Below, one piece after another: positions 27,126 to 33,899 of a DNA stretch of 64,000 nucleotides (positions are counted from its first letter, which is position 1; each line of letters starts with the position of its first letter). A program made the position numbers and the translations under genes. The stretch covers positions 1-64,000 of the forward strand of contig CAJQOH010000043.1 in assembly GCA_905479915.1 (NCBI GenBank). Reading direction: 5' to 3'. This stretch comes from an uncultured Flavobacteriales bacterium (GTDB taxonomy: Bacteria > Bacteroidota > Bacteroidia > Flavobacteriales_E > Vicingaceae). The notes beneath the pieces were generated by a model. The model ran no database searches and was not told where the DNA came from. It saw only the letters and a list, made by a program, of their open reading frames with translations.

Positions 27126-29942
27126 CTAATGCGCCAATAACCAGTTTTCTGCAGCATTCATTTCTACATCTAACGGAACAACTAATTGAACAGCGTTTTC
27201 CATTTTATCTTTAACGATAGCTTTTATCTGATCTAATTCTGGTTTATAAACATCAAATACCAATTCATCATGCACTTGTAGTAACATTTTAGATTGAAAT
27301 TGTTGTTTTTCAAACTCTTCATGAATGTTAATCATGGCTATTTTAATAATATCTGCAGCTGACCCTTGAATTGGAGCGTTAACTGCATTTCGCTCTGCAT
27401 GACTCCGAACAATAGCATTAGCAGAATTAATGTCTTTTAAATTCCTTCTACGGTTCATTATGGTTTCCACATAGCCATGCTCCTTTGCAAACTCAACATT
27501 GTTCTCCATATAAGCTTTCAACTTAGGATACTGTTCAAAGTAAGTATCTATAATTTCTTTCGCTTCTTTTCTAGGGATATTTAAATTTTGAGATAATCCA
27601 AATGCTGAAACACCATAAATAATTCCAAAATTAACCGCCTTGGCCTTACTACGCATGTCTCTATCAACATCTTCTTTCGCTACCCCAAAAACCTTAGCAG
27701 CTGTAGCAGTATGAATGTCTTCTCCTTTTACGAAAGCTTCTTGCATGTTTTCATCCTCACTCAAAGCTGCAATAATTCTCAATTCTATCTGAGAATAATC
27801 TGCTGCCAACAACGTATAATCATCATTTCGTGGAATAAATGCTTTACGAATTTCTCTCCCCTTTTCAGTACGAATAGGAATATTCTGAAGGTTCGGGTTA
27901 TTAGAACTTAATCGTCCGGTAGCAGCAACTGTTTGCATATAGCTGGTGTGAATTTTTCCATCTTCAGCATTTACTAACTCTGGTAAAGCATCAACATAGG
28001 TAGATTTTAGTTTTTTTAATGAACGGTATTCTAATATTAATGGAACTATCTCATGCTTGCTCGCCAATTTAGACAACACATCTTCACTCGTAGAATATTG
28101 CCCTGTCTTTGTCTTTTTTGCTTTTTCTACAATTTGCATTTTATCAAACAAAACTTCCCCCAACTGCTTTGGTGAATCAACATTAAACTCTTCTCCAGAT
28201 AACTCAAGAATTTTTTGCGTTAATTCTTTTACAGAAATTTCTAATTCTTCAGAAAATTTAGCCAAAGCTGGAACATCTAAATTGATCCCCTCTTTTTCCA
28301 TAGCACTTAAAACAGGAATTAAGGGAGTCTCAATTTCATCCATTAATTTTTTAAGCGTTTCATTCATTTTAGGTTCAAACTGATTCTTTAATCTTAAAGT
28401 AATGTCAGCATCTTCACAAGCGTAATCTACAATTTCTTCTTGTGGAATATCACGCATTGTTTTTTGCTTCTTGCCTTTTTTACCTATCAATGTTTCTATA
28501 GAAACTGTTTTATACCCCAAATATGTTTCAGCTAACAAATCCATATTGTGACGCATGTCAGGTTGAATCAAATAATGCGCAATCATAGTATCAAACAAAG
28601 GGCCTTTTACCTGAACATTGTAATTGGTTAAAACATTGATATCATATTTAATGTTCTGCCCAATTTTTTCAATTTTATCATTTTCAAACAACGCTTTAAA
28701 TTCTTCTAAAACTGCTGTAGCTTCTTCCTTTTTTTCTGAAAAAGGGACATAGTAGGCTTCTCCTTCTTTCCAGGAAATTGATAACCCAACAACTTCTGCT
28801 TCAAAAGGATTTATTCCTGTTGTTTCTGTGTCAAAACAAAAAGATTTCTCTTTAGATAAATCCGCAATCAACTTTGCTCTTTCTTCAGCTGTTTGTACAA
28901 AGTGATAGTTGTGCTCACTATTGGTAATGTCTTTTGCTTCAAGCGGAGCTTCTTCAACAACATCTTGCTCTTGTTCTACTGCCGTTTCCATTACATTCCC
29001 AAACAAATCCATTTGACCTCCTGGTTGCACTGGAACAGCTGCTTGCTTAATTTGAATTTCTCTTCCTAAAATTCTTTTAGCCAAATTCCTAAATTCCAAT
29101 TCTGCAAAAAGCTCAGTTATTTTTTCTTCATCTGGCGCTTCTATTTTCGTATCCTCCAAATCATAATCAACTGGAACATCTAAAATAATTGTTGCCAACA
29201 TTTTTGATAGCAGTCCTTGTTCTGCAAAATTGATAACGTTCTCTTTTTGTTTTCCTTTTAATTCATGGGCATGCTCAATTAACCCTTCAACACTACCATA
29301 TTTTGCAATCAATATTTTTGATGTTTTTTCTCCAATCCCCGGAATTCCTGGAATATTATCTACCGCATCTCCCCACAACCCTAAAATATCAATAACTTGT
29401 AAAGGGTTTTCTACACCAAACTTTTCGCAAACCTCAGGAATCCCCATAACCTGAGCGGGTTTACCATACGCAGCAGGCTTGTACATGAAAATATTTTCTG
29501 AAACCAATTGTCCAAAATCCTTATCGGGAGTCATCATGTAAGTTTGGAAACCTTGCCTTTCAGCTTCCTTCGCCATAGTCCCAATTATATCATCGGCTTC
29601 ATACCCTTCTAATAAATACATTGGAATATTAAACGCTTCAATAATTTTTTTGATGTAAGGAATAGCTGAACGAATATCTTCGGGCATCGCTTCTCTTCCT
29701 GCCTTATAATCTGTAAAGACTTCTTCTCTATTTGAGGCTCCACCAGGTGCATCAAAAACTACAGCAATGTGTGTTGGTTTCTGTTTTTCTAACACTTCAA
29801 TTAATGTGTTCGTAAAACCCAACATTGCAGAAGTATTTAACCCTTTAGAATTGTATCGTTGATTCTTTCCAAAAGCAAAGTATGCTCTATAAATTAGAGC
29901 AAATGCATCGAGTAAAAAAAGCTTCTTATTGTTGTCTGACAT
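27126..29942 (-). CDS. polA: DNA polymerase I
   Basis: 938 aa with all three domains: the 5'-3' exonuclease/FEN domain (about 1-300; LFLLDAFALIYRAYFAF, YEADDIIGT), a 3'-5' proofreading domain whose DTE residues are kept (FCFDTETTGINPFEAE, about 369), and the polymerase domain with motif A (LLAADYSQIELRIIA), the O-helix RSKAKAVNFGIIYG and motif C (LQVHDELVFDV). It fills gaps in repair and removes Okazaki primers. Unlike many bacterial homologues, the proofreading residues look intact. Confidence 0.97.
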   Translation of the reverse strand: MSDNNKKLFLLDAFALIYRAYFAFGKNQRYNSKGLNTSAMLGFTNTLIEVLEKQKPTHIAVVFDAPGGASNREEVFTDYKAGREAMPEDIRSAIPYIKKIIEAFNIPMYLLEGYEADDIIGTMAKEAERQGFQTYMMTPDKDFGQLVSENIFMYKPAAYGKPAQVMGIPEVCEKFGVENPLQVIDILGLWGDAVDNIPGIPGIGEKTSKILIAKYGSVEGLIEHAHELKGKQKENVINFAEQGLLSKMLATIILDVPVDYDLEDTKIEAPDEEKITELFAELEFRNLAKRILGREIQIKQAAVPVQPGGQMDLFGNVMETAVEQEQDVVEEAPLEAKDITNSEHNYHFVQTAEERAKLIADLSKEKSFCFDTETTGINPFEAEVVGLSISWKEGEAYYVPFSEKKEEATAVLEEFKALFENDKIEKIGQNIKYDINVLTNYNVQVKGPLFDTMIAHYLIQPDMRHNMDLLAETYLGYKTVSIETLIGKKGKKQKTMRDIPQEEIVDYACEDADITLRLKNQFEPKMNETLKKLMDEIETPLIPVLSAMEKEGINLDVPALAKFSEELEISVKELTQKILELSGEEFNVDSPKQLGEVLFDKMQIVEKAKKTKTGQYSTSEDVLSKLASKHEIVPLILEYRSLKKLKSTYVDALPELVNAEDGKIHTSYMQTVAATGRLSSNNPNLQNIPIRTEKGREIRKAFIPRNDDYTLLAADYSQIELRIIAALSEDENMQEAFVKGEDIHTATAAKVFGVAKEDVDRDMRSKAKAVNFGIIYGVSAFGLSQNLNIPRKEAKEIIDTYFEQYPKLKAYMENNVEFAKEHGYVETIMNRRRNLKDINSANAIVRSHAERNAVNAPIQGSAADIIKIAMINIHEEFEKQQFQSKMLLQVHDELVFDVYKPELDQIKAIVKDKMENAVQLVVPLDVEMNAAENWLLAH

Positions 29943-30023
29943 ATCCTGAATTTTGAAAATACAAAATACGTTTTTTAATTACTCCAAAAGAATTCTTTCT
30001 TGAATTCTTATCGTAGTTAATTT

Positions 30024-32843
30024 CTAATTCTCCCGTTGTATTTTTATAATCATTTTAGTTCCTTGGGAGCTCCCTTCTGTATCATATAAATCTATCATTT
30101 CAACATTTACATCATTATCCTGCACAACACAATGAAGGTAATCTCCATCTTCTTTTATTCCAATTTTAATTACTCCCTTACCTTTTTTATTCATTAACCC
30201 ATGCCATATCGCATTTTCCACATAAGGTTGTAAAAGCATTGACGGAATTTCATCATAATCTACATCTATTCCATCATCAACTTCAATGAAGTAATCAAAT
30301 TGTTCTTCAAACCTCATTTTTTCTAAATTCATATACATAGTTAATATATCAATTTCCTCTTGTATCGTAATTACAGTTTTTTCAGACAAATGAAGAATCG
30401 TTCTTATTAACCTTGCAAACTGTACAATATATTTATTGGTATTCTTAAAATCGTTAGTAGCTATATAATGCTGAATAGAATTTAGTGTATTAAAAATAAA
30501 ATGAGGGTTCATTTGAGCTCTTAATGCTTTAAGTTCTAATTCTATCATTTTCTTTTCAGACTCTGCAATTTTTTGAGCCGCGTCATTTTTTTGGGACAAC
30601 TGTTTTTCTCGATACAAAAATATAGCGACAATAATCCCTATTCCAAATAAAATCTCTAATGAAATAAACCACCAAGTTAACCAGAAAGGTGGTGAAATTG
30701 AAAACGATAAACGTGTTGGATCGCTCCAGTAACCATCTTCGTTTTTTGCTTTTACTTCAAATTGATATTCATTAGGTTGTAATGTTGGATATTGTACAGA
30801 TCTACTAGTGATCTTTGTCCAATTCGTATCAACACCTAACATTCTATACTGATATTCTACCTTTCCTAAACTTCTATAATTTAAACCCTCAAAATAAATT
30901 TTAATGAAATTTTCTTTATATGTTAAACCTGTGTTCTCTTTAATCTCTCTTTCTTCAGAATTTACATTAAACTCGGTAATGTAAACCGGAGGATGAGTAC
31001 TATTTCCCCTCACTTTTGTTTTATCAAATTGAATCAACCCTTTTGGTGTTGCCGCATAAATAGTGCTTCTATAAGAATTTATCGCAATAACTTCTTCAGA
31101 AATTAATCCATGAATCTTTTTGATATTATAAACATCAAAATCATTTTCTCCTCTATAATTCAACTTACTCAAACCTTTACTCGTTCCTATCCATATCGTT
31201 TTCTCATTATCAACATGTATTGACTTAATCAAATTTTGAATCAATCCATTCTTTTCTGAAATTCGATCAATAACACTATTATTTTTTACAAGAAGAAGTC
31301 CTTTGCTTTTTGTTCCTGTTAATACTATACTATCGTTTAACCTAGCCATACACGTAATGTATGACGATAAATCTTTATCACTATGAAAAGGGTTACTTAT
31401 TTTATTGTTTTTATAAACTCTTATTCCAGCTTTACTTCCAATCCAAATATCTTCTCCAATTTTTAAAAGACTAGTACCCCAAATAGGTGGCTCTCCTAAA
31501 TCTGCAGAGTAATAAGACAACCTTTCATTTGTTCCAAAAAATAAAGAACCTCCTCCGATTCCATAAATTATATTTCCATCTATTAATAAATCTTTACTCT
31601 TAAGATAAGGAGTAGGAATAACTCCTTCCTTACTTATTTCCATACTATACTTAGGTCCTGAAACAATTATAGAGCCTGTTTCATAGTTCTGTTTTAAACT
31701 AAAAATTCGGTCATTTATATTGGCTATTGTTTTGAATATTAGTTGTTCTCTTCTCCTTACTTGAACGTCTCCATTATTAAATCCTAAATAAGTGGATTGA
31801 TTCACTGTGTCAACTTCCAAAGCGGTTATTGCACTATTAAATGATTTACTCACTATATTTTCTGATGATAAGTAATAAACTCCTTCTTTTAGTGTTTGAA
31901 ACCAAAAACCTCCTGCATTATCTTTAAAAACTCTAGATATAGTACTATTTTTAAAAAATCGATCAACAACAATTAAACGACCTCCTTTAATAATACATTT
32001 ATAAACACTACTATTTCGAATAGGAATAAAAAGAAAGCTATCACAAGTCATTATGTTTAATATCCCATTTTTAGTAGGAATTAATCCCTCTTCATTTATT
32101 TTTAACCTATCTCCATTTTTTTTTAAAAGAAGTAAATCATTAGACAATACAATCAAAACATCATTATCATATCGAATAAACTGCGATCCGGCACGGTCAT
32201 AATCATCTGCTCCGAAATTAATTCCCGTAGTGTTCTCGTCTATATGTATAACAAACTTATCTATTAATTCCTTCTTTTTTAAATAGATACTCTTTTGCCC
32301 CCAAATAGTCGTATTTTCAACTTTAAAACCCTTAAGAAGACTAACCTTATTTTTAGGAAGATTTACTAATTGAGTTATTTTTCCTTCTTTATCACACTTA
32401 AAAATCCCATCACTTAAAAATCCCATCCAAATATTCTCATTGGAATCGACATAAAATGACTGAAGAGATAAATTACCTTTCATCTTCTCGGCTATTTTAT
32501 TATTGTGCTGATAAGGATAAATACTATCGTTAAAATAATAGGAGAGTTGACAATTGAACGTTCCAAACCAGACTCTTCCTTTAGAGTCTTCTGTAATTAA
32601 AAAAACTGTATTATCTGTTAAGCCATCAGAAACATCAAAGTTTTCAAATTCATACCCGTTAAAACGACTAACACCTGCATCGGTTGCAAACCACATATAA
32701 CCTTTAGAATCTTGAAAAGCAGAGTACACTTCTGAAGAGGGTAATCCATCTTCTATTCCGTAGTGTTTGTATACATGAGATTGAGAGTAACTTATTTTAC
32801 TCCCGAAAATAAATATGAATATTATTAAAAGTGTTTTTTTCAA
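30024..32843 (-). CDS. Propeller-type LytS-like sensor histidine kinase with an apparently deleted ATP lid
   Basis: 939 aa. After a signal peptide come two propellers built of reg_prop blades (GYMWFATDAGVSRFNGYEF, TIWIGTSKGLSKLNY), a Y_Y_Y domain (YQYRMLGVDTNWTKI), one membrane helix (about 718-742) and a His_kinase domain with the phosphoacceptor RAQMNPHFIFNTLNSIQHY. The N-box is present (LLQPYVENAIWHGLMN). The G1/G2 region expected after VVQDN is missing, however: the chain goes straight to DVNVEMIDLYD and GTKMIIKI. The start is a TTG three bases after rlmN. No response regulator lies adjacent. Confidence 0.85.
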   Translation of the reverse strand: MKKTLLIIFIFIFGSKISYSQSHVYKHYGIEDGLPSSEVYSAFQDSKGYMWFATDAGVSRFNGYEFENFDVSDGLTDNTVFLITEDSKGRVWFGTFNCQLSYYFNDSIYPYQHNNKIAEKMKGNLSLQSFYVDSNENIWMGFLSDGIFKCDKEGKITQLVNLPKNKVSLLKGFKVENTTIWGQKSIYLKKKELIDKFVIHIDENTTGINFGADDYDRAGSQFIRYDNDVLIVLSNDLLLLKKNGDRLKINEEGLIPTKNGILNIMTCDSFLFIPIRNSSVYKCIIKGGRLIVVDRFFKNSTISRVFKDNAGGFWFQTLKEGVYYLSSENIVSKSFNSAITALEVDTVNQSTYLGFNNGDVQVRRREQLIFKTIANINDRIFSLKQNYETGSIIVSGPKYSMEISKEGVIPTPYLKSKDLLIDGNIIYGIGGGSLFFGTNERLSYYSADLGEPPIWGTSLLKIGEDIWIGSKAGIRVYKNNKISNPFHSDKDLSSYITCMARLNDSIVLTGTKSKGLLLVKNNSVIDRISEKNGLIQNLIKSIHVDNEKTIWIGTSKGLSKLNYRGENDFDVYNIKKIHGLISEEVIAINSYRSTIYAATPKGLIQFDKTKVRGNSTHPPVYITEFNVNSEEREIKENTGLTYKENFIKIYFEGLNYRSLGKVEYQYRMLGVDTNWTKITSRSVQYPTLQPNEYQFEVKAKNEDGYWSDPTRLSFSISPPFWLTWWFISLEILFGIGIIVAIFLYREKQLSQKNDAAQKIAESEKKMIELELKALRAQMNPHFIFNTLNSIQHYIATNDFKNTNKYIVQFARLIRTILHLSEKTVITIQEEIDILTMYMNLEKMRFEEQFDYFIEVDDGIDVDYDEIPSMLLQPYVENAIWHGLMNKKGKGVIKIGIKEDGDYLHCVVQDNDVNVEMIDLYDTEGSSQGTKMIIKIQREN

Positions 32844-32846
32844 AAC

Positions 32847-33899
32847 TTATTTAGCGGCTTCGTTCTTATTGGCTAACTGCCCACAAGCTGCATCAATATC
32901 TTTACCTCTACTTCTTCGAACATTAACAATTAAGTTAAAAGTATTTTCTAAAAAGGCTGCAAACTTATCGGTCTTTTCAGGATCAGCTTTTAGGAACTGC
33001 ACATCATCCACCGTATTGTATTCAATAATGTTAATCTTACAAGGAACAATTTTCGCAAAATTGGCTAGATCTTTAGCATCCTCTAATGAATCATTAAAGT
33101 CTTTGAAAATAATGTATTCAAAAGTAACTCTTGACCCCGTTTTTTCATGAAAATACTCCAGTGCTTCTGATAGTGCTTCTAATGAATTAGAATCGTTAAT
33201 CGGCATGATTTCACTTCGCTTAGCATCTGTTGCAGCATGTAAAGAAAGTGCTAAATTGAATTTTACATCATCATCTCCCAGCTGTTTGATCATCTTTGCT
33301 ATACCTGCTGTTGAAACCGTAATTCTTTTAGGGGACATCCCTAAACCTTCATCAGAAGTAATCTTTTCTATGGATTGAAGTACATTTTTGTAGTTCAATA
33401 AAGGCTCCCCCATTCCCATATAAACAATGTTGCTCAATGGTTTTTGGTAATGTTGCTCTGCCTGATTTTTTATAATTACTACCTGATCAAAAATCTCTTC
33501 TGCATCAATGTTTCGTAACCGGTCTAATTTACCAGTTGCACAAAAGGCGCAACTTAAACTACATCCAACTTGACTAGAAATACAAGCCGTCATTCTTCTT
33601 GGTGTAGGAATTAGAACTCCTTCGGTAATCTTTCCATCATAAAGCTTAAAAGCATTTTTAATGGTTCTATCTGAACTTACTTGTTTTTCAGCAACTCCAA
33701 CAGCATTTATTGCAAAATTCTCATTAAGCATTTCGCGCAAAGGCAAGGAAAGGTTACTCATCTCATCAAAAGTTGTTGCCCCCTTTTTCCAAAGCCATTC
33801 ATAAACTTGTTTAGCCCTAAATGCTTTTTCTCCTTTCTCAATAAAAAGAGCTGACAACTCTTCTTTAGTGAGTACGCGTATGTTCTTTTTCGATGACAT
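32847..33899 (-). CDS. rlmN: Dual-specificity 23S rRNA/tRNA adenine-C2 methyltransferase
   Basis: Radical-SAM enzyme that methylates C2 of A2503 in 23S rRNA and of A37 in some tRNAs. 350 aa with the cluster motif CSLSCAFCATG and the SAM-contact region VYMGMGEPLLNYKNV. The second catalytic cysteine is in AACGQLANK near the C-terminus. The kinase gene follows after three bases. Confidence 0.95.
   Translation of the reverse strand: MSSKKNIRVLTKEELSALFIEKGEKAFRAKQVYEWLWKKGATTFDEMSNLSLPLREMLNENFAINAVGVAEKQVSSDRTIKNAFKLYDGKITEGVLIPTPRRMTACISSQVGCSLSCAFCATGKLDRLRNIDAEEIFDQVVIIKNQAEQHYQKPLSNIVYMGMGEPLLNYKNVLQSIEKITSDEGLGMSPKRITVSTAGIAKMIKQLGDDDVKFNLALSLHAATDAKRSEIMPINDSNSLEALSEALEYFHEKTGSRVTFEYIIFKDFNDSLEDAKDLANFAKIVPCKINIIEYNTVDDVQFLKADPEKTDKFAAFLENTFNLIVNVRRSRGKDIDAACGQLANKNEAAK

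Follow-up and report, generated by a model that had tools for sequence, protein, structure and literature searches.

Propeller-type LytS sensor kinases that carry Reg_prop and Y_Y_Y domains and are paired with LytTR regulators are found in Vicingaceae-like and other Bacteroidota (loci L042, L057, L058, L061 and L062), and they share both their domain order and their clade with the kinase gene described below. These pairs keep the G1 box, the ATP lid and the G2 box, together with an adjoining downstream regulator, whereas the gene examined here lacks both. A GHKL kinase deprived of its ATP-binding parts is very unlikely to autophosphorylate.

There are three described proteins with which this gene can usefully be compared. 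ChrS_CA-fs is a laboratory-evolved frameshift variant from Corynebacterium glutamicum that confers heme tolerance above that of a chrS deletion (PMC9491836). Its lesion, like that of our gene, affects the CA domain only and leaves the sensor and DHp in place, but it is a frameshift in another kinase, and both the regulator ChrA and the helper kinase HrrS are present (PMC9491836). RocA of group A Streptococcus is a reported pseudokinase that acts through CovS, for which two-hybrid results were negative and co-immunoprecipitation was positive (PMC7028121). DivL of Caulobacter is without kinase and phosphatase activity, yet it binds DivK~P (PMC4211667). RocA and DivL are histidine-kinase-like, as is the protein considered here, and both lack kinase activity. 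However, RocA has a partner in CovS, and DivL has DivK and CckA and keeps its ATP lid, whereas our protein is without a known partner and looks young (PMC7028121, PMC4211667). In the mostly open-access literature surveyed on pseudo-histidine kinases and lid deletions, we came across no LytS-type kinase with an in-frame lid deletion of natural origin.

The kinase gene and its domains

The window is the whole stretch of 64,000 nucleotides that was analysed, taken from an uncultured Flavobacteriales bacterium (GCA_905479915.1, contig CAJQOH010000043.1). The relevant features are as follows.

27126-29942, minus strand: polA, directly downstream of the kinase gene
30024-32843, minus strand: propeller / Y_Y_Y / LytS-type histidine kinase gene (ORF and Pfam matches to Reg_prop, Y_Y_Y and His_kinase)
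30027-30113, minus strand: residues 911-939, the last two CA strands (NVEMIDLYD..., GTKMIIKI), fused to the G1-box strand (alignment; low-confidence prediction)
30113-30119, minus strand: deletion junction, with a single GATAATG (DNA comparison with L042)
30114-30218, minus strand: residues 876-910, with the retained N-box (ENAIWHG, 876-882) followed by the strand whose last residues are the QDN of the G1 box (alignment with relatives)
30297-30536, minus strand: DHp / His_kinase (PF06580), with the phosphoacceptor His781 in NPHFIFN (779-785) (Pfam and alignment)
32847-33899, minus strand: rlmN, directly upstream of the kinase gene, its stop 3 bases before the TTG

The kinase ORF runs for 939 codons without interruption and ends in ...LHCVVQDNDVNVEMIDLYDTEGSSQGTKMIIKIQREN. 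A signal-like stretch is followed by Reg_prop propeller repeats, a Y_Y_Y domain, a membrane stretch and a LytS-type His_kinase domain, wherein the signal-like N-terminus and the membrane stretch were assigned by reading and the other domains by Pfam. The first start is a TTG located 3 bases past the rlmN stop and in the same frame, and the earliest in-frame ATG corresponds to residue 50. A relative in genome G002 (L058, 5920-8964) is likewise without an ATG ahead of its signal-like stretch, and thus a non-ATG start may not be unique to the window kinase. Scans for promoters and terminators gave no signal exceeding that of shuffled sequences. Membership in PF06580 is supported by E values of 4.7e-23 to 5.5e-24 in two runs and by the presence of NPHFIFN, and the alignment places the N-box of the CA domain in the window kinase. 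The sequence-only reading had stated that the phosphoacceptor His region and the N-box are kept, and this holds, since His781 in NPHFIFN and ENAIWHG are both present.

The missing ATP-lid segment

The VVQDN strand of the window kinase runs straight into DVNVEMIDLYDTEGSSQGTKMIIKIQREN. In relatives, about 36-40 residues lie between the same two strands, and these comprise the DNGIGR glycines, a lid with KSxGM and the helix ITKERL. According to the alignment, the window kinase lacks everything from the DNGIGR glycines through the last residue of the ITKERLDLI helix, and the Asp and Asn ahead of the G1 glycines are retained. No Pfam match to the HATPase_c domain (PF02518) was obtained for the window protein, even with the threshold relaxed to E<=10, whereas all five relatives tested match it (E from 3e-7 to 8e-5, with two exceeding the Pfam cut-off). 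A genome-wide HATPase_c search with 23 matches also does not list the window gene, but it says little on this point because three other LytS-type kinases, on contigs C12, C19 and C23, are unlisted too.

The sequence-only reading had proposed an in-frame deletion of the ATP-lid region and had named G1 and G2 boxes that are present but diverged as the contrary finding. We rejected divergence because the flanking strands align on either side of the gap, and this alignment together with the lost HATPase_c match indicates that the G1 glycines, lid and G2 box are deleted, as first proposed. Relative to the closest relative (L042/L059) the loss amounts to 36 codons (108 bp) with the frame intact, slightly smaller than the 'roughly 40' residues originally estimated. 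Because the ATP-binding parts are missing, the kinase activity of the window protein has presumably been lost.

An AlphaFold2 model of the window protein, built with 15 aligned sequences, gives block pLDDT values mostly of 73-94, with two blocks near 60, for most helices, the DHp and the first half of the CA domain. Past the junction the values fall to 38-51, versus 61-86 for the blocks of the intact relative L059 from the same point on. In a fold search of the PDB, the GanS kinase domain (6swj/6swk) is the first solved match for both models, and the window model fits it less well (E 5.6e-9 versus 8.6e-12). At E<=0.001, the window model matches 21 chains and the intact model 322. The search with these predicted models only confirms a histidine-kinase fold, and no more.

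The junction itself carries a possible record of how the segment was lost. L042 (G010:C147, of which L059 is the same stretch) is the closest relative in which the region is readable. It lies on the window kinase's own sister branch with full support in the tree, and L059 shares 79% identity with the window kinase over the last 221 residues. GATAATG is located at each end of the lid segment in L042, with the copies 108 bp apart, and the window has one copy whose flanks resemble the relatives' sequence on either side. In the compared stretches, repeats of at least 6 bp are absent from three of four other relatives, and the fourth (L062) has a single 6-bp repeat at a different offset. Across nine kinase genes, 14 of 25,728 positions have a 7-bp repeat at an offset of 108, as do 2 of 2,594 positions in L042, the GATAATG pair included. 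Since the GATAATG copies sit at the breakpoints and such a repeat is rare by chance, a deletion between short direct repeats is the likely origin of the lesion as judged from the sequence, wherein the pair is read in the relative L042 and not in the actual ancestor. The length of 108 is a multiple of three, and an in-frame length alone has a one-in-three chance.

There is only one carrier of the inactive form, the window, in the order and class sets among the matches listed. The order search, for which the last 101 residues of the window kinase served as query, covered 46 genomes and gave 118 matches, and the whole query (1-101) was aligned in the window alone. The segment is kept at all seven other places that reach residue 91 or beyond, one of which (G064) has the second G1 glycine altered. 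It is also kept in the three that were read of the four matches that reach residues 88-89, G015:C10 being the fourth. The class search covered 395 genomes that overlap the order set, 230 of them with a match. Among the matches listed there, from which a low-scoring carrier might be missing, the segment is kept in each of the 17 others that extend to residue 91 or beyond.

Another LytS-type kinase of the same genome (L003, G000:C11:25177-28623, minus strand) is interrupted in its N-box by an in-frame stop, the sole internal stop among the 118 matches in the 46 genomes. The remainder of its CA domain, its DHp and its downstream LytTR regulator (L136) are intact. Thus, two of the six His_kinase places in this genome are CA-defective, which may be due to chance.

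The absent regulator and the position of the gene

The clade used for comparison consists of twelve loci with an identity of 43% or more, two of which (L044 and L051) may be pieces of one gene. A REC-LytTR regulator is located directly 3' of the kinase in all ten clade loci with readable downstream DNA, wherein the regulator domains were tested by Pfam in L042 only and the L043 regulator runs to the contig end. L050 and L051 were left out of this count because these loci stop with their contigs. No cognate REC-LytTR regulator is present beside the window kinase, whose next gene is polA, and a search of the window for a regulator remnant gave a best E of 0.11 among the best 20 matches.

A remote LytTR regulator had been suggested as a check, and the draft genome to which the window belongs does hold eight LytTR matches, which were compared with seven regulators of relatives. 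The identities are 24-43% over the length of the regulators. Among the nearest relatives of the window kinase, the regulators share 47-58% identity with each other, and the identity between the relatives' two regulator subclades is about 39-44%. Moreover, the best full-length candidates, on C11 and C12, adjoin LytS-type kinases of their own. Given these low identities and the existing pairing of the best two, there is no clear orthologue of the lost regulator among the eight places in this assembly. This is a judgement, because the highest values reach the level seen between the subclades, and the assembly is 97.5% complete in 74 contigs, so that the regulator could sit in an assembly gap.

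Elsewhere in the genome, a protein of 160 residues (L139, G000:C21:66356-66637) has a LytTR domain without a receiver domain. Its LytTR part shares 27-44% identity with the seven relatives' regulators, and by reading only it adjoins pilin-like and prepilin-peptidase-like genes.

The location of the kinase gene is also unusual. There are nine relatives in which rlmN and polA are found on one piece, and in none of them does the kinase lie between these genes. PolA directly follows rlmN in eight of the nine, and two unrelated genes intervene in G013. In G006, G009 and G010, a kinase of the window clade comes after polA and is followed by a regulator in G006 and G009 and by the contig end in G010.

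The rlmN-polA gap (window 29942-32850; L174-L187) is variable in the genus, being empty in eight relatives. In G004, as read from contig ends, it holds what is apparently a propeller-type gene on the opposite strand. G010 has multiple clade kinases (L042/L059, L013, L050) that are at least partly in tandem with regulators, and one of its contigs shows the order kinase, regulator, kinase start, an arrangement that could favour recombination. L013 begins with a regulator tail that shares 94% identity with the L042 regulator tail over 35 residues.

Evolution of the remaining protein and explanations for the locus

The rest of the protein evolves at the rate of its sister. In the tree, the end branch of the window kinase has a length of 0.60, and the paths from the same node to two sister sequences measure 0.52 and 0.84. 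Unique amino-acid changes in the window protein and in L042 number 87:85 with one outgroup and 80:80 with another. Among positions that are invariant in the other eight full-length members, the window protein breaks 9 of 181, and the corresponding values for the eight intact members range from 3/175 to 18/190. Whole-protein tests for relaxed selection versus L042 were negative. These observations suggest a young lesion or else continued selection on the protein, with its receptor in use.

There is an excess of replacements in DHp+CA on the window branch with the first outgroup (11/9 versus 4/20, p 0.011 uncorrected), the single p below 0.05 among fourteen comparisons of the window with L042, and the second outgroup gives 5/9 versus 3/16 (p 0.24). 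For the tail alone, unique changes are 7:2 or 3:3, depending on the outgroup. Because the intact relatives L014 and L043 show a similar excess (p 0.021), we do not count the DHp+CA excess as evidence.

We assign a probability of roughly 0.6 to the explanation that the window gene is an orphaned LytS-type sensor kinase, recently kinase-dead and early in decay, and most likely heading toward a pseudogene. The sequence-only reading had left the choice between a recent inactivation and a protein that binds a ligand and dimerises without kinase activity. The former is favoured because of the deletion footprint, the missing regulator and the unusual position, none of which that reading had mentioned, and because of the unaccelerated evolution, and the latter becomes an alternative. 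Perhaps the kinase gene came into the rlmN-polA gap without its regulator, and the orphaned kinase then underwent the deletion between short repeats by replication slippage or a similar process, although the move, the loss of the regulator and the deletion may have come in another sequence. The product would probably still enter the membrane and dimerise via its intact DHp, and from its sequence it is expected neither to bind ATP nor to autophosphorylate.

One alternative, which we consider unlikely, is that the gene encodes a working pseudokinase whose receptor senses a ligand and acts via dimerisation or by docking to a regulator or another LytS-type kinase. The intact sensor, DHp and N-box, the sister-like rate of evolution and a lost piece that spans from strand to strand with the frame left open are all consistent with this, as are the precedents of ChrS_CA-fs (PMC9491836), RocA (PMC7028121) and DivL (PMC4211667) and the second CA-broken kinase with an intact DHp in the same genome. 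However, neither a regulator nor a kinase adjoins the gene, nothing elsewhere in the assembly is clearly related to the lost partner, and among the matches listed there is no further carrier of this single occurrence to show retention. The replacement excess in DHp+CA would at most weigh slightly against such a role, being weak and confined to one outgroup, and in the ChrS study the truncated variant itself was not seen to heterodimerise in two-hybrid (PMC9491836). A bolder version is more doubtful still: the locus would be a natural receptor-type pseudokinase at birth, wherein one slippage event removed the nucleotide module, the DHp heterodimerises with other LytS-type kinases or titrates their regulators, and the C11 lesion, with its N-box stop and intact regulator, reflects selection for kinase-dead sensors.

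A real deletion that is merely polymorphic at the level of the strain or culture, in a species that has an active kinase, would account for its presence in one genome only and for the lack of any sign of age (open frame, unaccelerated branch). The regulator is also missing and the gene position is odd, which points to a longer orphan history and makes this explanation improbable. An assembly or sequencing artefact is harder to credit, even for a draft in 74 contigs, since assemblers would seldom join across a 7-bp repeat and the junction is relative-like on either side. An unusual yet active lid-less GHKL kinase would fit with the presence of the N-box and the Asp of the G1 box, but the G1 glycines, lid and G2 box are all lost and the tail is poorly predicted. 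In addition, the segment is kept in all 24 other alignments that extend to residue 91 or beyond among the matches listed, and in the three that were read of the four that end at 88-89, so that we regard such an enzyme as scarcely believable.

We thus take the window protein, in all likelihood, for a sensor kinase that was disabled recently and not for a novel type of machine. Counts of two-component genes often rely on the DHp or sensor domains, and this case indicates that a seemingly complete sensor kinase, with a healthy-looking frame and a mostly healthy-looking sequence, can be catalytically dead and orphaned. If the protein does not act, the locus is an ordinary inactivation whose footprint is unusually readable. 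If it does retain a function, the protein would parallel in nature the ChrS pseudokinase that was evolved in the laboratory, and it would illustrate how such receptors originate.
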